From the IMG/VR virus record IMGVR_UViG_3300042535_000010, positions 1 through 54,718 of that record: a stretch of DNA of 54,718 bases. One strand, written 5' to 3'. Below the pieces are notes generated by a model. That model ran no database searches and was not told where the DNA came from. It saw only the letters and a list, made by a program, of their open reading frames with translations. This DNA comes from a virus. Position numbers and translations under genes: made by a program. The first letter of the stretch is position 1; each line of letters starts with the position of its first letter. This document shows, one piece after another, positions 6,027 to 51,907 of this stretch.

Positions 6027-6040
6027 TGCTACACTAGGCC
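6027..6040 (+). promoter_or_regulatory. Extended -10 promoter, leaderless
   Basis: TGC-TACACT and five bases before ATG 6041. Confidence 0.75.
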
Positions 6041-6790
6041 ATGGCCACGAAGCTGACCTGGGGTAGTTTCTTTCTCACCTTTGATGCAGTCCTGCGCGAG
6101 GTGCATACACTGAACCAGGAAGTGACCGAGCATCCGGTAGAGCAGGGCGCCGCGCTTGTGGATCACATCCGGCCGCTTCCGCTCGAGATCGCGCTCGAGG
6201 GCGTGATCAGCAACTCGCCCGTGTACCTGCCCCTGGATCATGCCGACGGCGTGAGCTGGCAGGCGCGCGAGGTCGAGGTCGAGCCCCAGACTCTGGCGGA
6301 TATCGTCGCGCGCAACCGGGGCTCGGCCGGAGTGTCCGGGGCATTCAACCCGATCGCGTCCCAGCTCGCGGCCTCGGCGGCGCAGCTCATCACGATACCC
6401 GGTCCCAAGGGGCGCGTATACGGCCCGAGCCAGCCCCTACAGAGAGAGCAGGCGGTCTACGCGACCCTGTCCGACCTGCGAGGCAAGGGCGAGCTCCTGA
6501 CCCTGTACACCGGCCTGGCCACGATCGAGCGGCTCGCGCTCGCGAGCGTGACGTGCTCGCGCGACGCCAGCGGAGGACTGCAGATCCAGATGACCCTGCG
6601 GCAGGTGCGCCTGGCCACGGTCGACGCCTTGCCCGAGACCAAGCCCCTGGTGACGGTCAAGGCCGCGCCGAAGAAGCGCGTGGCGGCGACCGAGAAAGCG
6701 CCCGAGGCCACGAACCGGGCGAGCCTGGGCTTCAAGGTCGGGGACAAGGCCGGGGCCTGGTCGCACAAGGGCGAGCTGGTCACGGATTGA
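6041..6790 (+). CDS. Dit-like / baseplate tail protein
   Basis: 249 residues beginning MATKLTWGSFFLTFDAVLRE. The ordering 'HPVEQGAALVDHIRPLPLEIALEGVISN' (residues about 30-60) is the strand pattern of Dit-like baseplate proteins of simple contractile tails, which join tube and baseplate. A Lys/Ala-rich stretch (about 200-225) precedes the end. It follows the tape measure and precedes fibre genes, the expected place for a tail-tip component. Confidence 0.65.
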   Translation: MATKLTWGSFFLTFDAVLREVHTLNQEVTEHPVEQGAALVDHIRPLPLEIALEGVISNSPVYLPLDHADGVSWQAREVEVEPQTLADIVARNRGSAGVSGAFNPIASQLAASAAQLITIPGPKGRVYGPSQPLQREQAVYATLSDLRGKGELLTLYTGLATIERLALASVTCSRDASGGLQIQMTLRQVRLATVDALPETKPLVTVKAAPKKRVAATEKAPEATNRASLGFKVGDKAGAWSHKGELVTD

Positions 6791-6949: not shown

Positions 6950-6983
6950 ACCCCGACCATACCCCGCGTGCTAGACTAGCGCA
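6950..6983. promoter_or_regulatory. Divergent leaderless promoter pair
   Basis: Minus strand: TATGGT (6956-6961) six bases before ATG 6949. Plus strand: TGC-TAGACT (hexamer 6972-6977) six bases before ATG 6984. Two start codons only 34 bases apart face opposite ways. Confidence 0.7.
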
Positions 6984-7319
6984 ATGGCCAAAACGTTCGA
7001 TCTGTACCCCGAGCCTACCCGGATCAGGATCCTGGCCGGCACGACGCTTCGGTTGAACTGTCGGCCTAAATACGATACGGGCGCACAGGTCGACCTGACC
7101 TCGGCCACGTTCGAGACCTCGATTTTCGCCCGGACCGGGACGGCCCCGGCCGTGACCACGTTCGCCACCTCGCTCCTGAGCGACGGTCGTGTGCAGCTCG
7201 CCCTCACCGCGGCCGAGACCGACTTGATCCCCGGCTCGTGGGGGATATCGGCCACGGCGACGATCGGCTCGGTCGTGTTCGCGCTCCTGCGCGGCGACCT
7301 GACAGTGGTGGAACCATGA
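6984..7319 (+). CDS. Baseplate/fibre-adaptor protein (BppU N-terminus-like)
   Basis: 111 residues, all-beta in appearance, beginning [20 protein letters not shown]. It reads like the Ig-like N-terminal module of baseplate upper proteins that anchor receptor-binding fibres (strand-rich, with '[14 protein letters not shown]'). It overlaps the collagen-like fibre gene (ATGA), consistent with an adaptor for that fibre. Assignment by pattern and neighbourhood. Confidence 0.55.
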
Positions 7320-9732: not shown

Positions 9733-9857
9733 CTCGACACCGCCTGCTTGTGGTTCTCGGCCAGCTCGCGCCGCCATCCCGCGCCGTGGCGGCGGATCAC
9801 GATCTCTCGCCACGCGGCGAGCGCGGCGACCAGGAGACAGGTCTCAGAATAGGTCAT
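9726..9857 (-). CDS. Small hypothetical protein (43 aa)
   Basis: Begins [20 protein letters not shown] and has a basic C-terminus ([16 protein letters not shown]). ATGA overlap with the pentapeptide-repeat gene upstream supports translation coupling. Confidence 0.55.
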
Positions 9858-10537
9858 CGGTATTCCTCCGCCTCGACGCGGGTCATAAAGAAATGTATGC
9901 CATGCGTACACTCGACCCTGATGTCGTCGTCGAACTTGTCCGCGGTCACCACAGATCCCACCGCACTATAGTCCAGTTCACCCTTCGTAGGTGACTTACC
10001 ACCCGCATCCATCACAATCACGTGGCTCGCGCGGCACTTACGCCCGACAAGCGAGCTTGTGCGGACTGCGTCTGCGGGGACCTGCACCCGGATAACACCT
10101 GTCGTGGTTTTCTTCCACGCCACGAACTCGCCCTCGCTCGGCACGATCTGAAAGTGCGGCAACTTCGCTCCAGTGAGGTTCGCGCCGCTGAGGTTCGCGC
10201 CGCTGGGGTTCGCGCCGCTGAGGTTCGCGCCGCTGAGGTTCGCGCCGCTGAGGTCCGCGCTGCGGAGGTTCGCGCTGCGGAGGTTCGCGCTGCGGAGGTC
10301 CGCGCCGCTGAGGCTCGCGCCGCTGAGGCTCGCGCCGCTGAGGCTCGCGCTGCGGAGGTCCGCGCTGCGGAGGTCCGCGCTGCGGAGGTCCGCGCTGCGG
10401 AGGTCCGCGCCGCTGAGGTCCGCGCTGCGGAGGGCCGCGCCGCTGAGGGCCGCGCCGATGAGGGCCGCGCCGCGGAGGTTTTCGGTCGGGATCGTGAGAA
10501 GTACAACACCCTGGTGATTTCTGATTTCGACAGGCAT
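9854..10537 (-). CDS. Pentapeptide-repeat protein with DUF5758-like C-terminus
   Basis: 227 residues. Residues about 20-125 are pentapeptides (A[DN]L-S/R-x type: [15 protein letters not shown]), forming a right-handed square beta-helix. Residues about 130-227 match the DUF5758-type domain that follows such repeats in phages ('[21 protein letters not shown] ... [14 protein letters not shown]'). Some pentapeptide proteins mimic DNA and protect or inhibit gyrase; that is not shown here. It is the first gene of a nine-gene minus operon. Confidence 0.85.
10171..10480. repeat. 15-bp tandem repeats encoding pentapeptides
   Basis: About twenty tandem 15-base units of the form GAGGTTCGCGCCGCT with point variation, within the 10537 minus-strand gene. 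The unit variants fall into blocks (CGCTGAGG and TGCGGAGG types), a sign of unit duplication. All six frames stay open here, so ORFs in other frames are artefacts. Confidence 0.9.
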
Positions 10538-18007: not shown

Positions 18008-18385
18008 ATGGAAAAAGCTAACGTTGTCACGTGGCTGCTCAAGCACAATCGGATCGTGGGTCTGAACCTGAACGCGACCGTGCCTGGGGTCGTGCTGCCT
18101 GTGGACCTCATGACACACGAGCAGGTGGTTCTAGAAATAGGTCTCGACCTTCCAAAACCGATCCACGACCTGTGGATAGACGGCAACGGAATCGCGGGCA
18201 CGCTCTCCTTTGACCGCCCGGTGCATTGCTTGATCCCGTGGGCCGCGTTGCGCGCCGCGTGGGGGAAAGACGGCAGAGGTACGGTCTGGGACGACGTCCC
18301 AGGCCCGAAGCAGTCCGCCGTCGCGGTCCTGGACGGCGGCGCGGAAACGACACCGCCGAAGCGCGGGCACCTGCGATTGTGCTAG
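18008..18385 (+). CDS. SspB-like ClpXP adaptor protein, copy 1
   Basis: 125 residues beginning MEKANVVTWLLKHNRIVGLN. The core 'VVLPVDLMTHEQVVLEIGLDLPKPI' then 'GIAGTLSFDRPVHCLIPWAAL' has the strand order of SspB, which tethers ssrA-tagged proteins to the protease ClpXP. It is a clear paralog of the gene at 54039. The C-terminus (about 100-125) is Pro/Lys-rich, as in the flexible ClpX-binding tail of SspB, but no canonical LRVVK-type motif is evident. Sits alone among tail genes with its own promoter. Confidence 0.65.
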   Translation: MEKANVVTWLLKHNRIVGLNLNATVPGVVLPVDLMTHEQVVLEIGLDLPKPIHDLWIDGNGIAGTLSFDRPVHCLIPWAALRAAWGKDGRGTVWDDVPGPKQSAVAVLDGGAETTPPKRGHLRLC

Positions 18386-18394
18386 ACTAGGCAC
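18380..18394 (+). promoter_or_regulatory. Extended -10 promoter, leaderless
   Basis: TGC-TAGACT plus six bases before ATG 18395; the surrounding GTGCTAGACTAGGCAC is a near-perfect palindrome. Confidence 0.8.
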
Positions 18395-19465
18395 ATGGCA
18401 CGACCTGTCGACTATCCAGACTTCGCCACCTCAGGCACCCGCACAGCACCGCCAGGCCCCGTCACATCCGCGGGCTGGACCCCAGGTAACCGCCTGCCTG
18501 CCGTGTGGATGAACTACCTACAAGGCCTCTGCGGCGACTGGATCCGGCAGCTCGTGCTCGAGTCCGACGGCTCAGCCCGGCTCGCCCCTACGACGCAGAA
18601 CGCGTTCACAGTCTCGGATCCAGACTACGCCCCGATCGACGTCGCGACTGAACCGGGCGCGAACTTATGGCAGTGTGTGCTCAAGATGCACACAGGGCTA
18701 ATCTCAGCCGGCAACAACTGCGACGTCCGGGTGTATGTAGGTAATGGGAGCGAGGGCTACGTCGCGATCGTCGTCAACACCCTGTTTCATCACCCAAGCG
18801 CCAAGTGGCGCAACATGAACACGACGCTGGACTCGCGCGCGTTGTTCATCGGCCCGGGTGGTGTGTCGTTCAAGTTCAAGGCCGCCGCTTCGGCGGCCTG
18901 GACAACCTGGACCGACTACACGAACCTAGATGTAGGTCAGATCACGGCGACCGGGTTCATCGCCGCTACGGGGAATATCACGTCAGGCGGCAACGTCACC
19001 GCCAGCGGATACATGTCCGCGGACTACTACCAGACCCCGAACACGACATTGACCGCGCCAATCCGCCTGGCGAGCGCCCAAGGCAACGTGTCTCGCGTGG
19101 GCGCTACGGGCGCGATCAAGCCTGCGTCTGGAACAGCGGTGATCTACTGGCCTTTCCAGCGCCCCCTCAACTCGACATGGGGCGACATCGTGATCGTGCT
19201 GAACCAGGCGACATCGACCCCGGGCCAGTTTGAACTCATGCGCCGAGACGCGGACGGAGGCGCGGGCGGCGCCCCCGCCGTGGCGATCGACTTCACCGTC
19301 GGGACCGGGACCGGGACCGGGCGCAAGGTTGTGACCCTGGCGACGTCGGGGGGCGAGTATGTCTCGAGCGAGGATTACGAGCTCGTGTGGACCCCGGGTG
19401 CTACCGCAGACGAGGTCGAGCAGATCCAGATGAGCTGGACCGACAGAGGACCGCGAAACGACTAG
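18395..19465 (+). CDS. Tail fibre protein
   Basis: 356 residues starting MARPVDYPDFATSGT. The N-terminal 'GWTPGNRLPAVWMNYL' motif is common in phage fibre anchors. The middle has 'DVGQITATGFIAATGNITSGGNVTASG', a repetitive beta-rod segment, and the C-terminus is a globular beta domain. Probably a receptor-binding fibre beside the larger tailspike downstream. Confidence 0.75.
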   Translation: MARPVDYPDFATSGTRTAPPGPVTSAGWTPGNRLPAVWMNYLQGLCGDWIRQLVLESDGSARLAPTTQNAFTVSDPDYAPIDVATEPGANLWQCVLKMHTGLISAGNNCDVRVYVGNGSEGYVAIVVNTLFHHPSAKWRNMNTTLDSRALFIGPGGVSFKFKAAASAAWTTWTDYTNLDVGQITATGFIAATGNITSGGNVTASGYMSADYYQTPNTTLTAPIRLASAQGNVSRVGATGAIKPASGTAVIYWPFQRPLNSTWGDIVIVLNQATSTPGQFELMRRDADGGAGGAPAVAIDFTVGTGTGTGRKVVTLATSGGEYVSSEDYELVWTPGATADEVEQIQMSWTDRGPRND

Positions 19466-20026: not shown

Positions 20027-20041
20027 TGCTACACTAAGCGC
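20027..20041 (+). promoter_or_regulatory. Extended -10 promoter, leaderless
   Basis: TGC-TACACT plus six bases before ATG 20042. Confidence 0.8.
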
Positions 20042-22300
20042 ATGGCACTCTCTTACGAGCTCTCCACGCGCCTAGCTGATTCCTCGATCGAGTACCTGCC
20101 ATCCGGCCAGATCCGGATCCCGCTGGCGGACCAGACCACGATCGACAACGCGGCCGCCGCCCAGGTCTTGGACGCGTGGCGTGTTGAGCGTTTTCTTCTG
20201 CCGGGCGAGGTCCTTAGCGCGAGCACCTGCAACGCGGCGCTGATCGCCGCCGAGGCCGCCGCCTACGCGCGCGCCGGAGACCAGGGTGTCGCGATCTTGG
20301 TACCAGCGGGGACGTACACGCTGAGCCAGACCGTGCGCGTGCGCGGCCGCGGCGGAAACAAGCGAGCCCCCTACATCATTGGGGCTGGTGTCGGCGCGAC
20401 AATCTTCGAGGTGCCCGCGCTCCCGACGGGCGGCACCTACTCCGGAGCCGGCGCGTGCTTCTGGCTGGACGGTAGCTACGCGGCCAACAGCGCTTTCTAC
20501 AACGGGGGTTTGATCGGCATCACCATCAAGATGATGAGCGAGCACGGCGCCATCGGTGTCTACGGCGAGGGGCTGTTGCATTCGAAGCTCTGCGACCTGG
20601 ACGTGATCGGCTATGGCACGGTCAACTACTACTCGGCCGTGAGCGGCCAGACGGGCGCCGCTGCGAGTTGCAGCGCCGCGGACGCGAACGGCGAGCAGAC
20701 ATGGACCGGGCTCACGGGCGTGACTCTGGATTGCGAAGGCCGCGCGCACGTAAGCACGGGCGCGACCACAGGCGCGAACAATGGAACGTTCACTATCACG
20801 CGTTACGTCTCGGCGACCAGCTACAAGGTGTTCAATCCTTCCGGCACGAGCGACGCGAGCAACGGTTCCTTGGGGTGGACAGAGAAATACACGAGCACGG
20901 GCTACAAGTTCCGCGGCGAGTACGTGAACAGCCGCGGCGTCACGATCGCAAACAACCAGGACGTGCGTATGGACAACGTCCGGTCCTATGGCATGGGTGT
21001 AGGGGCGTGGCTGGAGGCGGTCACGCAGTTCTCGATCACGCATTTCAAGATAGAGAACAACGGGCGCAACGTGTGTCTCGGCCACCGTTGTGACCAGCTC
21101 TCGATCACCAGCGCGCTATTTCAAGGCATCGGGACCTACGTGGTGTGGGAGATCCCAGGCAGAACGGGAAACAAGATGGTCACCTTGCGTGACTGCTACC
21201 AAGAGGGCGCAGCTACTGCATGGCTTAAGACGTATCCGCCGATCAGTGGCATGAATGACTACGTCCTTGAAGATTGCGGCCAGGGCAACGCTGCCACATA
21301 CATCGATGCGTCAGGCACGCGTTCGATCATCGTGCGTATGCCTGGCAATCAGGCAGTTCCTTCGACGGCATGGGCCAAGCTCCGCAACGTGGGGCACGCG
21401 TCGTTCACCGGTGGCGTCTTCGAAAGCCCGGCGATCGCGCCAACCAAGTGGGACCTTGATCTAGCATCGCGCGTCGGCTTTAGCGTCAACGGGTCGAGCA
21501 AGAGATATCACGGCAGCCACGGAGTAGAGAAAGGTCTGAACCGCTTCTTGATTGGACGTGGTGACCTGATGGCTGAGGTGTGGGACGGGCGTGCGGTCCG
21601 GAAGCGCACCGTAAATGCAGGCAATCTCGAGGCCTTGGTCGGCATCGTGAACGGCATCACGCTCGGGCCCGTGAACGCGGCCATCTACCCGACCTGGACT
21701 GCGTCGAATGCTGCCTTCAACGGCGCACCCACGTGGAACGTGCTGCCTGGTGCGATCGCCGCCGCGGGGGCGCTCAAGGCGACCATGACGGTCGGCGCAC
21801 TGCCCGTCGGCTCACAGCCGGGCCTGCTCTGCGTGTTCAGGAACCCGAGCGCAGCCGATGCCTCGAACCACTACCAGCGATTTGTCTGGACAGACGGGAC
21901 CAACTCTACGCTGATCGGTATGTCCGACAGCGTGGCCGTGGGGGCGCCGGGCACGGACGATTCTTTCTACTTCTACAATCAGATAGTCGGACAGGTGCTC
22001 GGCCCTCTGTCCAGCACAGACACACAGGCGATTTACGGCGGCGTTTGCCCCGCCGCGGGCGGTACGATTTCGGGCGAGTGTAACACGGCCGATTTTCTCA
22101 CGACGCCGTACGCAAACATGGCAGCGTACGCCAGCGTTGCGGCGGGCACCGTGACCGTGTTCGGCCCGGCAACGCAGCCGATCGACAACGCGATCGAGGT
22201 CGCGTGGTGCGGCGTCACCAAGCGCGGCATGACACGCGGGGAGCTGGAGCAGTTCCTAGATCTGGCGGCGGCCGAGTTCGGCCCCATTGCGCGCTACTAG
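20042..22300 (+). CDS. Tailspike / beta-helix receptor-binding protein
   Basis: 752 residues, the second-largest protein here. 'GDQGVAILVPAGTYTLSQTVRVRG' (about 79-102) is the entry strand of pectate-lyase-like right-handed beta-helices. Alternating short hydrophobic strands run to about residue 470. A C-terminal lectin-like domain (about 530-752) follows. Such spikes often degrade capsule or O-antigen; catalytic residues cannot be named. Converges tail to tail with the HD gene, overlapping 45 bases. Confidence 0.8.
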   Translation: MALSYELSTRLADSSIEYLPSGQIRIPLADQTTIDNAAAAQVLDAWRVERFLLPGEVLSASTCNAALIAAEAAAYARAGDQGVAILVPAGTYTLSQTVRVRGRGGNKRAPYIIGAGVGATIFEVPALPTGGTYSGAGACFWLDGSYAANSAFYNGGLIGITIKMMSEHGAIGVYGEGLLHSKLCDLDVIGYGTVNYYSAVSGQTGAAASCSAADANGEQTWTGLTGVTLDCEGRAHVSTGATTGANNGTFTITRYVSATSYKVFNPSGTSDASNGSLGWTEKYTSTGYKFRGEYVNSRGVTIANNQDVRMDNVRSYGMGVGAWLEAVTQFSITHFKIENNGRNVCLGHRCDQLSITSALFQGIGTYVVWEIPGRTGNKMVTLRDCYQEGAATAWLKTYPPISGMNDYVLEDCGQGNAATYIDASGTRSIIVRMPGNQAVPSTAWAKLRNVGHASFTGGVFESPAIAPTKWDLDLASRVGFSVNGSSKRYHGSHGVEKGLNRFLIGRGDLMAEVWDGRAVRKRTVNAGNLEALVGIVNGITLGPVNAAIYPTWTASNAAFNGAPTWNVLPGAIAAAGALKATMTVGALPVGSQPGLLCVFRNPSAADASNHYQRFVWTDGTNSTLIGMSDSVAVGAPGTDDSFYFYNQIVGQVLGPLSSTDTQAIYGGVCPAAGGTISGECNTADFLTTPYANMAAYASVAAGTVTVFGPATQPIDNAIEVAWCGVTKRGMTRGELEQFLDLAAAEFGPIARY

Positions 22301-34115: not shown

Positions 34116-34567
34116 CCGAGACCAAGGACACGAACCCTAAGGACGCCCTGGGCTCGACCCGTGCCCCTATCTATCCTCCGCTCCCCGCGCTGACAGCCAT
34201 GATGCTCGCCCTTGCGGAGGGCGCGATCAAGTATGGCTGGTGGAACTGGACGAGCGCTGGCGTGCGCGCGAGCATCTACGTCGCGGCAGCAGCCAGGCAC
34301 CTGTTCAAGTGGTTTTTCGGCCAGGACAAGGACCCGGTCACGGGCGTGCACCATCTCGGCTACGTGATGGCGTGCTGCGCGATCCTGATCGATGCCGAGT
34401 GGCGCGCGAAGCTGGTGGATGATCGCCCGCCCGCGCTCCCTCGAATGGACGAGCTCTTTGCCCAGACCGAAGCCATCCTGAAGAACCTGGCCGCGACGAT
34501 GAAGCCGCAGCCAGGGGTCAGGGACTACACTAACCCTCAGCCAGAGGGCGTGCCACGAACACCCTGA
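34112..34567 (+). CDS. dATP/dGTP diphosphohydrolase-domain protein (DUF5664-like)
   Basis: 151 residues. 'NPKDALGSTRAPIYPPLPA', 'GAIKYGWWNWTSAGVRASIYVAAAARHLFKWFFGQDKDPVTGVHHLGYVMACCAILIDAEW' in pieces gives the family pattern (KYGxxNWR, RHxxxWxxGxDxDPxSGxxHLxH). Enzymes with this domain are annotated as purine-dNTP diphosphohydrolases. With the HD gene at 22256 it suggests control of the dNTP pool. Confidence 0.8.
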   Translation: MTETKDTNPKDALGSTRAPIYPPLPALTAMMLALAEGAIKYGWWNWTSAGVRASIYVAAAARHLFKWFFGQDKDPVTGVHHLGYVMACCAILIDAEWRAKLVDDRPPALPRMDELFAQTEAILKNLAATMKPQPGVRDYTNPQPEGVPRTP

Positions 34568-34593: not shown

Positions 34594-34818
34594 GTGCTGG
34601 CATGGCACAGCGCCTATCTTGCGTGGCGCACGCCTCCTGCCGGGGTCTCGCCCTGGGCGCTGGCGTTCTCCGGCGTCTGGGCGATCGAGTGCGTGCCGTA
34701 CTACTGGGGCCACGGCGACACACTGAGCGCAGGTGTGGCGTGCGTCCGCTGCCTCGGCTGGTTGACGTGGTGCGGGCTATACCACGCGCACAGGCGCCGA
34801 GCGGGACGCGATCAGTAG
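34594..34818 (+). CDS. Small membrane protein (74 aa)
   Basis: GTG start at 34594 is tentative. Two or three hydrophobic segments (about 1-10, 17-34, 46-64) separated by Trp/Pro-rich loops, ending in a basic tail. Last gene of the plus replication operon, overlapping the antisense peptidase gene tail to tail. Confidence 0.5.
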   Translation: MLAWHSAYLAWRTPPAGVSPWALAFSGVWAIECVPYYWGHGDTLSAGVACVRCLGWLTWCGLYHAHRRRAGRDQ

Positions 34819-35283
34819 CCTGATCCGGCCGCCGCACGCGGAGTCGTGTCGGATAGCGCACCGGATCGCGGCCTTGACCTGGCGCGCAGCCGCGTCGAGT
34901 GTGCGCACTTCAGGCAGCGCGTCCAGGTACCCAAGCGCGTACTTGGCTCCGGACCCGAGCGCAGCCGAGCGTGTGCGTACGTTCACAACCCAGCCGTCAT
35001 TGTCGGTCGAGATGAGCTGACCCTTGGTCTGGTCATACACGAGCGCGCTCCAGCCCTCGCGCCTTCGGCGCAGCAGAGCGGGCCTGAGCTCGGCCCAGCT
35101 GTCGTGCTCGTCCGCGGCCGCCAGCACGAGCCCGAGGTGACCGGCGAGCGCGCCGCACATGCGCTCGCCGACGAACCACTTGCGGGCGTTGTCTGCCTCA
35201 ATGACCGACCCCGAGGTGCACCGACTATCGCACCCTATCACACATCCGACTCCAGGAACGCGAACGGCAGCAATGACGGTCAT
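34777..35283 (-). CDS. Proteasome beta-subunit / HslV-like peptidase
   Basis: 168 residues. After removal of Met1 the protein begins TVIAAVRVPGVG, giving an N-terminal Thr nucleophile. The family residues follow: Asp in 'IGCDSRCTSG' (Asp17 position, shifted by one), Lys in 'DNARKW' (Lys33), Ser in 'LGSGAKYALG' (Ser129) and 'IRHDSACGG' (Asp166-type; Cys replaces the usual Ser169). Length fits HslV. No ATPase partner is encoded. Antisense between the replication and head genes. Function in the phage is unknown; degradation of host proteins or prohead maturation are options. Confidence 0.78.
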   Translation of the reverse strand: MTVIAAVRVPGVGCVIGCDSRCTSGSVIEADNARKWFVGERMCGALAGHLGLVLAAADEHDSWAELRPALLRRRREGWSALVYDQTKGQLISTDNDGWVVNVRTRSAALGSGAKYALGYLDALPEVRTLDAAARQVKAAIRCAIRHDSACGGRIRLLIASRSAPVRVV

Positions 35284-35322
35284 GGGGTGTAGTCTGACAC
35301 AGACCATGCTACACTTCCATGT
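35284..35322. promoter_or_regulatory. Divergent leaderless promoter region
   Basis: Plus: TGC-TACACT (hexamer 35310-35315) seven bases before GTG 35323. Minus: CAGACT seven bases before ATG 35283. The two start codons are 39 bases apart. Confidence 0.65.
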
Positions 35323-36369
35323 GTGACCGCCTATCGCTATGATACCATTGGGACTGTTCAGGGCTTCGAGCGCACCTCGCACGGGTTCCTGCGCGTGGAC
35401 GCACGTCTGACCAGGACCGGGGTCCTGCCCTACACCACGAGCTCGGGTGTGCGCCGAGAGCTGCGCCAGGACTCCGAGGTGTTCGCGCCGCAGAGCCTGG
35501 CCACGGCCCGCGCAGGCGTCCCGATCACGGTAGGCCACGTGGCCGCGCTGACCACGCAGAACCTGAGCGCGAAGGTCGGACAGTCCGTGACCGACGCCAC
35601 GCGCGAGGGCCGCTACCTGCGCGCCACGCTCCAGATCGAGGACCCGGCCACGATCGCCAAGGTCGAAGCGGGTGAGCTCCGGGATATTTCCATGGGCTAC
35701 ACCGCGGTCATGCGCTCGGACTCAGGCGCGGGCTACGACGCGATCCAGACCCAGATCCGATACAACCACATCGCCTTGCTGCCGCGCGGACAGGGGCGCG
35801 CCGGAACTGACGTCAGTCTGCGACTAGACACCTCCGAGGATGTGGGCTACACTACGGACATGGCACAGATTCAGATTGGCAGCGAGACATTCGAAGTGCC
35901 CGAGCAGGTGGCCTCGGCCTACAGCTCGGCGCAAGGCCAAGTCGCTGCGCTCGCCGCGCGCGCTGACGCCGCAGAGGCGAAGGTGTCCGAGGTCTCGGCC
36001 CGCGCCGACGCAGCGGACGCGCAGGTCGCGTCGCTCTCGGCTGTGGACCACACGCCCGCCATCGCGCAGGGTGTGACCGATCGCCTCGCGCTTCTCGAGC
36101 GCGTTCGCGCAAGCTTCCCCGCGTTCGCCTACTCCGGTCAGTCAGACGACCAGATCAAGGCCGAAGTCGTGGCCGCCAAGGGCGTGCGCGCTGACGGCAA
36201 GGACTCGGCCTGGATCTCTGGCGCGTTCGAGGCCGTGTGCTCCGCGCCCGTCGTGGCAGCGCCGCCTGCCGCCAGCGAGCAGAAGCTCGACAAGAAGGAT
36301 GAGCCCAAGGGCCCCGACGCAGAGCGCGAGGCGATGATCGCCCGCCGCAACGCAAAGTTTTCGCGCTAA
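35323..36369 (+). CDS. Prohead protease-scaffold fusion (DUF2213-like)
   Basis: 348 residues, GTG start by promoter position. Residues about 1-170 form a head maturation protease: 'VPITVGH' (about 66-72), 'LRDISMGYTAVMRS' and 'YNHIALLPRGQGRAG' carry the conserved His, Ser and late His region. From Met180 begins a helical, Ala/Glu-rich scaffold ('AQVAALAARADAAEAKVSEVSA' in part). An internal promoter lies just before Met180. The arrangement recalls lambda C/Nu3. Confidence 0.85.
   Translation: MTAYRYDTIGTVQGFERTSHGFLRVDARLTRTGVLPYTTSSGVRRELRQDSEVFAPQSLATARAGVPITVGHVAALTTQNLSAKVGQSVTDATREGRYLRATLQIEDPATIAKVEAGELRDISMGYTAVMRSDSGAGYDAIQTQIRYNHIALLPRGQGRAGTDVSLRLDTSEDVGYTTDMAQIQIGSETFEVPEQVASAYSSAQGQVAALAARADAAEAKVSEVSARADAADAQVASLSAVDHTPAIAQGVTDRLALLERVRASFPAFAYSGQSDDQIKAEVVAAKGVRADGKDSAWISGAFEAVCSAPVVAAPPAASEQKLDKKDEPKGPDAEREAMIARRNAKFSR
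35848..35859 (+). promoter_or_regulatory. Internal leaderless promoter for scaffold
   Basis: TACACT followed by ACGGAC and an in-frame ATG at 35860, exactly the spacing of the phage's other leaderless promoters, inside the protease-scaffold gene. Confidence 0.7.
35860..36369 (+). CDS. Capsid scaffold protein, internal in-frame product
   Basis: 169 residues starting MAQIQIGSETFEVPEQVASA. Same frame as the protease gene. Helical core (about 20-65), acidic Pro/Ala/Lys-rich C-terminus ending RRNAKFSR, typical of scaffolds whose basic tail contacts the capsid shell. Making it from its own transcript would supply many scaffold copies per protease. Confidence 0.65.
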   Translation: MAQIQIGSETFEVPEQVASAYSSAQGQVAALAARADAAEAKVSEVSARADAADAQVASLSAVDHTPAIAQGVTDRLALLERVRASFPAFAYSGQSDDQIKAEVVAAKGVRADGKDSAWISGAFEAVCSAPVVAAPPAASEQKLDKKDEPKGPDAEREAMIARRNAKFSR

Positions 36370-36930: not shown

Positions 36931-37926
36931 ATGTCTAAGCACCTGAAAGCGATCGAAACCCTCCTGGGCCAGACCGAGTCCAAGGCGGACGCGAAGGATA
37001 GCCCCTTCCTCGCCCTGCAACTCGAGCAGCTCGAGACCGAGATCTACAAGACCGAGTATCCCGACCTGATGTTCCGGCAGGTGATGCCGGTCAAGTCGAG
37101 CGGCCTCAACCCCGGCGCTGAGACCTTCGCGTACCGCGTCTACGACTGGTTCGGCGCGGCGAAGTTCATCTCGTCCAAGACCGAGGACCTGCCCTTGGTC
37201 GACTTTGCGGGCGAAAAGTTCGCCGGCAAGTTCGAGCTCCTGGGCGCTGCGTTCAAGGTCAGCCTGGACGAGCTGATGGCCGCTGCCTTCGCGGGCGTGG
37301 CGATCGAGGCCGAGAAGTCGAGCGCGGCAGCCGAGAGCATCGAGCGCAAGCTCGATAGCGTGGCAGCACGCGGCGACGTCGAGGTGGGCTTCAAGGGCTT
37401 CCTGAACCACAGCGACGTGACCATCATCGCGACGCAGACGGCCGAGTCAGTGACCACGTGGGCCGCGAAGCTCGCGCTTGCCAGCGGCAAGGGTCCGACG
37501 CACATCCTGAACGACCTGCACTACGCGGCGCAGAAGATCGTGACCGACAGCAAGGGCAAGATTCGGCCTGACCGCATGGTCATCCCGACCCAGCTCTACG
37601 GCTTGATCGCGACCACGCCGATGAACTCGACGGGTCAGAGCGACGCGACGATCTTGAGCACGTTCCTCAAGACCTCGCCCTTCATCAAGTCCGAGAGCCA
37701 GATCTCGGTGTGGTACCAGGCTGACACCGCATCGGCGGGCGGCACGGGTCGCATCGTGTTCTACAAGGCGGACCGCCGCTACATGGAGTTCTACGAGAGC
37801 CAGCCCCTCAAGGTGCTGCCGGGCCAGCCCAAGGGCCTGTGCGTGACCGTGCCAATGTACGCCAAGTGCGGTGGCCTGGTTTTGCGCATGCCGCCCGCGA
37901 TCCGCTACCTGGACGGCGCCGAGTGA
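36931..37926 (+). CDS. Major capsid protein (DUF2184-like)
   Basis: 331 residues. 'LETEIYKTEYPDLMFRQVMPV' (about 34-54) and the late 'YKADRRYMEFYESQPLKVLPGQ' with 'YAKCGGLVLRMPPAIRYLDG' follow the DUF2184 capsid family pattern (HK97 fold). Location between decoration protein and a strong terminator fits the most expressed structural gene. No protease cleavage site can be named. Confidence 0.88.
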   Translation: MSKHLKAIETLLGQTESKADAKDSPFLALQLEQLETEIYKTEYPDLMFRQVMPVKSSGLNPGAETFAYRVYDWFGAAKFISSKTEDLPLVDFAGEKFAGKFELLGAAFKVSLDELMAAAFAGVAIEAEKSSAAAESIERKLDSVAARGDVEVGFKGFLNHSDVTIIATQTAESVTTWAAKLALASGKGPTHILNDLHYAAQKIVTDSKGKIRPDRMVIPTQLYGLIATTPMNSTGQSDATILSTFLKTSPFIKSESQISVWYQADTASAGGTGRIVFYKADRRYMEFYESQPLKVLPGQPKGLCVTVPMYAKCGGLVLRMPPAIRYLDGAE

Positions 37927-50637: not shown

Positions 50638-51425
50638 TGTACGAGAATGAGATCAACGCCCTGCTGGGCATGGGTGAAACGAAGCACGAACGTGCGGCCC
50701 TCGACACCGCCATCGCGCTCATGCGCGCGGCTTCGGTTCCGCCCCATGACGAGGCGGCGGAGCTGGCGCACTGCGAACGCACAGCAGACGCTATCCCCGG
50801 TGTGGGCTCCTGGGAAACCCGCATCGCGATCCGAGGAGCTATTCTGGGCCAGCGCGCCGCCGTGCGGGCCAAGTGCGCTGCCGAGCCTACGGACGAGGAC
50901 TTGAAGCGCCACATTCGTGACAAGGACCGCTATCGGGAGTTGCTCGGACGTGCGGAGGCCGAGATCGAGCGGCTGAAGAGCCTCAGCGACGGGCTGGCGC
51001 GGGCGGTGGCCACACTCGTGGCAGACAACTCGACGCTACAGACCGAGTTGACCGAGCTAGCGGCCGAGATCGAGCGGCTGAAGGCGCAGCTGTCGGGTGT
51101 CGGGATGCAAGAGTTCCGGCGTCTGGAAGGGCGCCTGCACAACGCTCAGGACGAGATCGAGCGGCTTCGCGAAGTCTGGCGCCTGGCAGAGAAGCAGGTC
51201 GAGACCCTCTTGCGACAGAAATCCGAGCTCCAAATCGAGATCGAGCGGTTGAAGGCTTCGCGCGCCGGATTTGAGGGCCGCCTTGCCGCAGCGCAGCTGG
51301 AGATCGAGCGGCTGAAGGCGGAGATCAAGCGCCCGGAGGCGGAGCCTGCAGCAGCACACAACCCCTACGATCTATACGATCGTGCAGAGGATGGACGACG
51401 TATACCCCGCACAGGTGGCGAATGA
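50637..51425 (+). CDS. Tandem paralog 3, coiled-coil protein
   Basis: 262 residues. The shared N-terminal module (MYENEINALL ... ALDTAIALMRAA ... EAAELAHC) is followed from about residue 100 by a long coiled coil with five EIERLK(A/S) repeats. Strong GGAGGTGAAGTAATG start, overlapping the previous stop by one base. The C-terminal 60 residues are repeated at positions 1-185. Possibly a scaffold-type or regulatory protein. Confidence 0.75.
   Translation: MYENEINALLGMGETKHERAALDTAIALMRAASVPPHDEAAELAHCERTADAIPGVGSWETRIAIRGAILGQRAAVRAKCAAEPTDEDLKRHIRDKDRYRELLGRAEAEIERLKSLSDGLARAVATLVADNSTLQTELTELAAEIERLKAQLSGVGMQEFRRLEGRLHNAQDEIERLREVWRLAEKQVETLLRQKSELQIEIERLKASRAGFEGRLAAAQLEIERLKAEIKRPEAEPAAAHNPYDLYDRAEDGRRIPRTGGE
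50955..51330 (+). repeat. Heptad-coding DNA repeats (GAGATCGAGCGGCTGAAG)
   Basis: Five copies of this 18-base unit with small changes, coding EIERLK. Window position 1 falls inside such a unit, suggesting that repeats disturbed assembly at this point. Confidence 0.8.
51241..51421 (+). repeat. Direct repeat of 1-181
   Basis: Copy of the first 181 bases of the window, embedded in the coiled-coil gene and ending at the ATGA junction with the next gene. Confidence 0.95.
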
Positions 51426-51907
51426 CCCTCTACACAGCGATCAACCAACCAGGAACCGGCGCGAGCATGCGCCGCGCGCTCAAGGTCTTAGCTAAGGAGT
51501 GGCGGAGACGGGGCGTCCTGCCTGACGTAGAGGCCGAGTTGCACGTGAGGCACCTGCACGCGTGCGTAGACGCATCCCCCGAGGCCCAGCGCGCCCGCCA
51601 AGAGACGCACACCTACCTCGTCCAAAACATGCCCCTGAGTCTGCTCCAAAGACAGCTGACCAAGCTCGGCGCGTGCGAGGAGTCCATCGCCTGGGCGGGG
51701 CAGTTCTCAACCGCACGCCAGGCCTGGGAGGCGTGTGCGGACGAGTTCGAGATGTTGTCGTGGCTGCTACGCTTCGGGGGCGTCCGGCTGCGCGAGGAGG
51801 GCTACTACGCGCTTAGGGGCACTTGCATCAACTCACCCGAGGCCTGCGCAGCCATCCGCCGCGTGGTCCCGTTCGAGCGATTGAGAGAACTGTCGAGGGA
51901 AAAATGA
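51422..51907 (+). CDS. Conserved phage protein, paralog of 182-658
   Basis: 161 residues beginning MTLYTAINQPGTGASMRRAL. The last 90 residues are nearly identical to the 182-658 product, with near-identical DNA, while residues about 33-62 are unrelated. This pattern of conserved flanks and variable centre suggests recombination within a gene family. ATGA start overlap. Confidence 0.75.
   Translation: MTLYTAINQPGTGASMRRALKVLAKEWRRRGVLPDVEAELHVRHLHACVDASPEAQRARQETHTYLVQNMPLSLLQRQLTKLGACEESIAWAGQFSTARQAWEACADEFEMLSWLLRFGGVRLREEGYYALRGTCINSPEACAAIRRVVPFERLRELSREK

Follow-up and report, generated by a model that had tools for sequence, protein, structure and literature searches.

The window analysed here is the whole 54,718-nucleotide stretch of the IMG/VR virus record IMGVR_UViG_3300042535_000010. 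The record carries terminase, portal, Mu-F-like, head protease, major head protein, tail sheath, baseplate and Dit-like genes. These genes mark it as the DNA of a contractile-tailed phage rather than of a host. A gene for a proteasome-like hydrolase with an N-terminal threonine is flanked on the upstream side by replication genes, DNA polymerase among them, and on the downstream side by the head genes (Table 1). It resides on the strand opposite to the head operon, with 40 bp separating it from the head maturation protease gene. Both the gene order and the PHROG_530 match agree with the original prediction, which had placed the gene antisense between the replication and head genes, beside a prohead protease. 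The same prediction had stated that the gene has no ATPase partner, and this is upheld: neither an AAA_2 (HslU/ClpX-type) nor an AAA ATPase domain was matched in the record, which may be incomplete.

Table 1. Positions of the proteasome-like gene, its predicted catalytic codons, its start-proximal elements and the adjoining genes in the window.
Feature	Position	Strand	Evidence or remark
dATP/dGTP diphosphohydrolase N-terminal-domain protein	34133..34567	+	PF18909, E 2e-20
Proteasome-like (PHROG_1040 / PF00227) N-terminal-Thr hydrolase gene, 168 aa	34777..35283	-	Profiles, PDB sequence matches, structural model
Asp147-Ser-Ala-Cys150 codons; counterparts of Asp166 and of Ser169 (here Cys)	34834..34845	-	D in 112/139
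Gly110-Ser111-Gly112 codons; Ser129 equivalent	34948..34956	-	GSG in 139/131/138 of 139
Gly48 codon; equivalent of oxyanion-hole Gly47	35140..35142	-	Strand 42-48 then helix 50-59 in model; G 96, A 38 of 139
Lys35 codon; Lys33 equivalent	35179..35181	-	K in 139/139
Asp19 codon; Asp17 equivalent	35227..35229	-	D in 137/139
Met-Thr start; predicted nucleophile Thr2, which becomes Thr1 once Met is cleaved off	35278..35283	-	T 129, S 10 of 139
TGTCAGACT, 7 nt before the ATG at 35283	35291..35299	-	7/9 match to TGCTA[GC]ACT
Alternative in-frame ATG, 8 codons upstream; adds MVCVRLHP and buries the Thr	35305..35307	-	Considered unlikely
Head maturation protease, divergently oriented	35323..36369	+	PHROG_530, E 3.7e-67; Pfam DUF2213
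Major head protein	36931-37926		Downstream of the protease

Two other features of the window were recorded. A pentapeptide-repeat protein with A[DN]L[RS][SG] repeats is encoded at 9854-10537 on the minus strand, where a 15-bp tandem array (approximately 10105-10523) is followed by a non-repeat C-terminal domain. The first 636 bases (1-636) recur at 51241-51885 with 94-95% identity, approximately 51.24 kb downstream, and the sequences that follow the two copies differ. Either a gene region is duplicated here, or the contig has gone past a full turn of a genome that is circularly permuted and has entered a variant allele.

The position of the start codon determines whether the threonine would be exposed. 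An upstream start that buries this residue had been named as a difficulty for the original prediction, and an in-frame ATG does exist at 35307, but it is disfavoured by the starts of the homologues and by the sequence motif before the gene. Met-Thr is the earliest start available in 103 of 136 homologues, and 128 of the 136 lack any in-frame ATG further upstream, the median distance back to the stop being 11 codons; as the homologue starts were found by searching for the Met-Thr motif, these counts are supportive and not independent. The motif TGCTA[GC]ACT stands shortly ahead of many start codons in this phage. Its strict form, GCTA[GC]ACT-N2-9-[AG]TG, is observed 10 times in the window against an expectation of 0.43. 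The level of match found before the ATG at 35283 is attained by 2.9% of ATGs, whereas the ATG at 35307 has a match of 3/9. A weak Shine–Dalgarno-like sequence before 35307, AAG alone, speaks for the upstream start. The upstream ATG, read as CAT on the plus strand, overlaps the TGCTA[GC]ACT motif of the protease gene, and its presence can presumably be accounted for because it forms part of that motif. We infer that translation begins at the Met-Thr start at 35283, which is better supported than the start at 35307.

Examples of the motif occur at 2867-2884, 6027-6043, 6969-6986, 18380-18397, 20027-20044 and 35307-35325 (+). It sits 5-7 nt before many starts, often without a Shine–Dalgarno sequence, a placement that suggests leaderless or very short-leader transcripts. 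The TGTCAGACT element is possibly an extended -10 box of such a leaderless or short-leader transcript. Inside the head maturation protease gene, in the stretch 35846-36369 (plus strand), an in-frame ATG at 35860 is likewise preceded by an 8/9 match at a distance of 6 nt. The 169-aa C-terminal product from this ATG may be a nested scaffold protein, by analogy with phages that carry protease-scaffold genes.

The product of the proteasome-like gene has the N-terminus MTVIAAV and the translation MTVIAAVRVPGVGCVIGCDSRCTSG... The search against proteasome and HslV profiles that had been proposed as a check has been carried out. The protein matches the Pfam Proteasome family PF00227 with 40.3 bits against a curated cut-off of 22.4 (E 3.5e-10) and, along residues 1-160, PHROG_1040, the “peptidase HslV family”, with 64.2 bits (E 2.9e-17). 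Proteasome beta chains of the PDB are matched by phmmer with E-values down to 1.9e-6. The profiles, the fold and a coding-type GC3 of 0.80 rule out a chance open reading frame. The NCBIfam models give 33.1 bits for the archaeal proteasome beta subunit (cut-off 224), 22.8 bits for the bacterial beta subunit (cut-off 191.9), and 20 and 18.1 bits for HslV (cut-offs 137 and 157.75). As these cut-offs are missed by wide margins, HslV and proteasome beta proper are ruled out. Thus the part of the original prediction that assigned the protein to the proteasome-fold family stands, while its more specific naming as a proteasome beta or HslV-like peptidase applies to the family and not to either type proper. 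No prohead protease family was matched by the protein in the Pfam and PHROG profile searches. The PF00227 match is the only one in the whole record, with no second (alpha) proteasome subunit alongside. The protein is grouped with the phage-borne homologues of the proteasome-like family, with no subgroup assigned.

The predicted structure agrees with this assignment. The final AlphaFold2 model, built from a 36-sequence alignment in the correct register around Gly47, has a pLDDT of 91.7 and a pTM of 0.88. It contains strands at residues 3-9, 13-19, 42-48, 78-84, 89-93, 106-110 and 154-160, and helices at 50-59, 63-72, 113-122 and 129-146. The 50 PDB matches listed by Foldseek are all proteasome chains, with E-values of about 1e-11 and query-normalised TM scores of 0.74-0.85. 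The model and these matches describe an Ntn-hydrolase fold with the beta-sheet core of the proteasome, and the structure prediction that had been suggested as a test has thereby recovered the fold whose absence would have counted against the assignment. An earlier model (pLDDT 81.9, low at 38-60) was discarded, its alignment being three residues out of register near the oxyanion Gly47; this model also matched BFVD phage proteins named as HslV peptidase or proteasome subunit.

Conservation of the catalytic residues was counted in an alignment of 139 non-redundant homologues, with residue numbers that count Met as 1. The catalytic set of Thr1, Asp17, Lys33 and Gly47 is present as T2, D19, K35 and G48. 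The neighbouring R34 was dismissed as the Lys33 equivalent; from K35 to G48 there are 13 residues, the same as in the relatives. The column of Ser169 holds T in 71, S in 41, V in 18 and C in 9 of the 139 homologues, and Cys150 is therefore a minority natural variant. All of the residues listed in the original prediction, namely the Thr1, Asp17, Lys33, Ser129 and Asp166 equivalents and the cysteine in place of Ser169, were located in the translation and the alignment. So little variation in the catalytic set is to be expected in functional hydrolases but not in decoy subunits. Sequence, predicted structure and conservation together bear out the central claim of a phage-encoded proteasome-family protein with an N-terminal threonine, and the protein is a real, probably active and divergent member of a known phage family.

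Phage proteasome-like genes have already been described and annotated (PMC8665760; PHROG_1040), and this copy is a divergent addition to them. Fuchs, Alva and Lupas described the phage proteasome homologues (PPH) in 2021 and found AAH and CPH in phages also (PMC8665760). The PPH are proteins of approximately 140 aa in phages and prophages that lack H2 (PMC8665760). A search of IMG/VR based on a PPH alignment gave at least 496 confirmed relatives. Such genes are carried by phAPEC8, phi92, Medea1 and Aurca01, by Vibrio, Rhizobium and Erythrobacter phages, and by Tunturiibacter, Moorella, Geobacillus, Tenacibaculum and Microbacterium phages. The relatives were reached through weak matches and alignment-based searches; single-sequence scans of viral and genome contigs returned no close relatives of the window protein, and a tblastn search of INPHARED returned nothing below 0.01. 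A scan based on the major head protein found no sister phages. The highest identity of the window protein to any of the aligned homologues (139 proteins) is 33%. In a quick tree its end branch is isolated, with 1.97 changes per column; the nearest rows by path are PPH-like, with no supported set. It scores 49.8 bits with the profile of the PPH-like set, 56.5 bits with a mixed longer set and 26.3 bits with the MTC-type set.

The MTC-type subgroup, which starts M-T-C (e.g., L103, L113 and L182-L184), retains Thr1, Lys33 and GSG. It carries TTSF or a similar sequence at the place of Gly47 and often has no Asp166, and some of its copies lie in contigs of Myxococcota MAGs. These homologues are predicted from sequence to have an altered active site. 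Aeromonas phage 4L372D (L098:2501-3954) has two different proteasome-like genes in tandem, one of the MTC-type and one of the PPH-type, possibly a two-subunit arrangement. Vibrio phage phiTY18 has two PHROG_1040 places.

The surroundings of the homologues were compared using mechanically called open reading frames, by which small genes may be missed. No constant neighbour gene was found across these loci; the neighbours elsewhere include PhoH, DNA primase, ThyX/MazG, HicA-like, WhiB, NinG or terminase genes. A calcineurin-like phosphoesterase gene was considered as a functional clue and set aside: it lies within approximately 1.6 kb in five related loci but 1.9 kb away in the window, and is a common phage gene. 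A WhiB-like-looking gene family is found near the longer phage homologues in up to 15 loci of IMG/VR (L104-L174), often within approximately 500 bp, and in the DSL-LC01 phage an annotated WhiB gene adjoins the HslV-like gene. These WhiB-like neighbours point to actinobacterial phages as carriers of the longer homologues.

The favoured reading, which we hold to be somewhat probable, is that the gene encodes an unfoldase-independent, probably oligomeric Ntn hydrolase with an N-terminal threonine, of the phage-borne group in the neighbourhood of PPH, AAH and BPH (the betaproteobacterial proteasome homolog), which cuts particular host or phage proteins. Translation would start at Met-Thr, and the methionine aminopeptidase of the host would take off the methionine and expose Thr1. 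This residue would act as the nucleophile; Lys33 and Asp17 would activate it, and Gly47 would form the oxyanion hole. By analogy with BPH, the protein would self-assemble into a small homo-oligomer, either a ring or an open ring. During infection it would then cut peptides that are accessible, or certain unfolded or host proteins, with no need of ATP or a dedicated AAA+ unfoldase. The compact middle of the window protein shortens the helical layer, with 75 residues from K33 to GSG against 90 in HslV, and because of this the classical ring contacts may not form.

The lack of a phage ATPase in the record and the ancestry in the HslV family would also fit a peptidase subunit that borrows an AAA+ unfoldase of the host (HslU, ClpX or a proteasome ATPase), so that a phage-supplied HslV redirects host proteolysis. 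This is unlikely, as the helical layer that separates G47 from the strands after it is shorter than in HslV, and BPH, itself a descendant of HslV, has lost HslU binding (PMC5777263). A further proposal, also improbable, is that the window protein stands for a compact subgroup of its own among the phage proteasome homologues, with ends like those of HslV and a reduced middle like that of PPH. It would be a threonine protease or ligase that needs no unfoldase, has a quaternary structure without precedent and acts on specific host targets, e.g., in counter-defence or host takeover.

The name of the family implies neither peptidase activity nor ring assembly, and among its members is connectase, a monomeric protein ligase (PMC8665760). 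A non-proteolytic monomeric Ntn enzyme, a connectase-like ligase or an amidase, could thus be envisaged for a protein whose compact helical layer may not support rings. In the model the early strands are not separated by a large insertion of the connectase type, nor is a specific substrate motif known, which makes this reading quite unlikely. The suggestion that the protein poisons the host, entering HslV or proteasome rings as a subunit that inactivates or retargets them, draws on its homology to ring subunits, its smaller size than the host subunits and the lack of partner genes. It has fared poorly and is considered very unlikely, because the catalytic residues are conserved: a poison could work without catalysis, whereas the family keeps Thr1, Asp17, Lys33 and GSG almost unvaried, and the weak similarity to the HslV profiles (18-20 bits) makes shared interfaces doubtful. 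A proteolytic role in capsid maturation or assembly, also put forward in the original prediction and favoured by the short distance to the head maturation protease gene and by some homologues near head and terminase genes, is highly improbable because the phage has its own dedicated head protease alongside, the gene opposes the head operon, and the homologues lie in varied gene contexts with no constant structural partner.

The phage family of proteasome homologues is known but functionally unexplained. No literature on phage proteasome function or virion proteomics was found, nor was a substrate, assembly or phenotype of any phage member found reported in the literature consulted on phage proteasome homologues. 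These homologues are widespread, as the IMG/VR relatives indicate, and are found in the well-studied E. coli phages phAPEC8 and phi92. Their wide retention across phages is counted in favour of a catalytically competent hydrolase. The window copy is a compact, divergent member with intact catalytic machinery and, as in 17 named phage genomes, no HslU/ClpX-type unfoldase was found with it. This makes it a testable question whether a proteasome subunit acts without an ATPase during infection, and on which proteins, for which the laboratory E. coli phages offer a practical system.

In comparison with the known systems, the spacing of the catalytic residues in the window protein reads as a mosaic, with HslV-like ends and a PPH-like middle. 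Its combination of 33 residues from T1 to K33, 75 from K33 to GSG and 37 from GSG to D166 is absent from the other 138 compared proteins. The window protein resembles PPH in being the product of a phage gene, with the threonine directly after the initiator methionine, no propeptide, the same catalytic set and a short segment from K33 to Ser129 (PPH-like median 74). It differs in its length of 168 aa against approximately 140, in a longer first hairpin (PPH-like median 27 from T1 to K33) and in the H3-H4 segment from GSG to D166, which is a constant 27 residues in 63 PPH-like sequences. Two short helices are also modelled at 50-59 and 63-72, whereas PPH is said to lack H2.

The PHROG_1040 proteins, with examples in phAPEC8 (gp175), phi92 (gp58), Rhizobium RHph_TM21B, Erythrobacter XM05 and Medea1, share the profile match and the same residues, and no AAA_2 match was found in any of the 17 named phage records that carry them (17/17). 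The window protein differs from these in its identity of at most 33% to any aligned homologue. With HslV (ClpQ) it shares the proteasome fold, the N-terminal threonine and similar end segments (32 residues from T1 to K33 and 36 from GSG to D166 in HslV). The spacing match to HslV that had been claimed therefore holds for these two segments but not for K33 to Ser129, where the middle is 15 residues shorter; there is also no hslU in the record.

BPH has no propeptide and no unfoldase partner, and forms an epoxomicin-binding tetradecameric double ring with Thr1 exposed (PMC5777263). Despite this exposed Thr1, it is inert on standard substrates (PMC5777263). BPH is chromosomal and has a long pore loop, unlike the window protein, and likely BPH sequences, beta-proteobacterial and beside arginine-biosynthesis genes, have 190-193 aa and 100-101 residues from K33 to GSG against 75. 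The absence of a propeptide and of an unfoldase partner and the Thr1 catalytic set are common to both, and in these respects BPH provides a mechanistic precedent for the phage protein.
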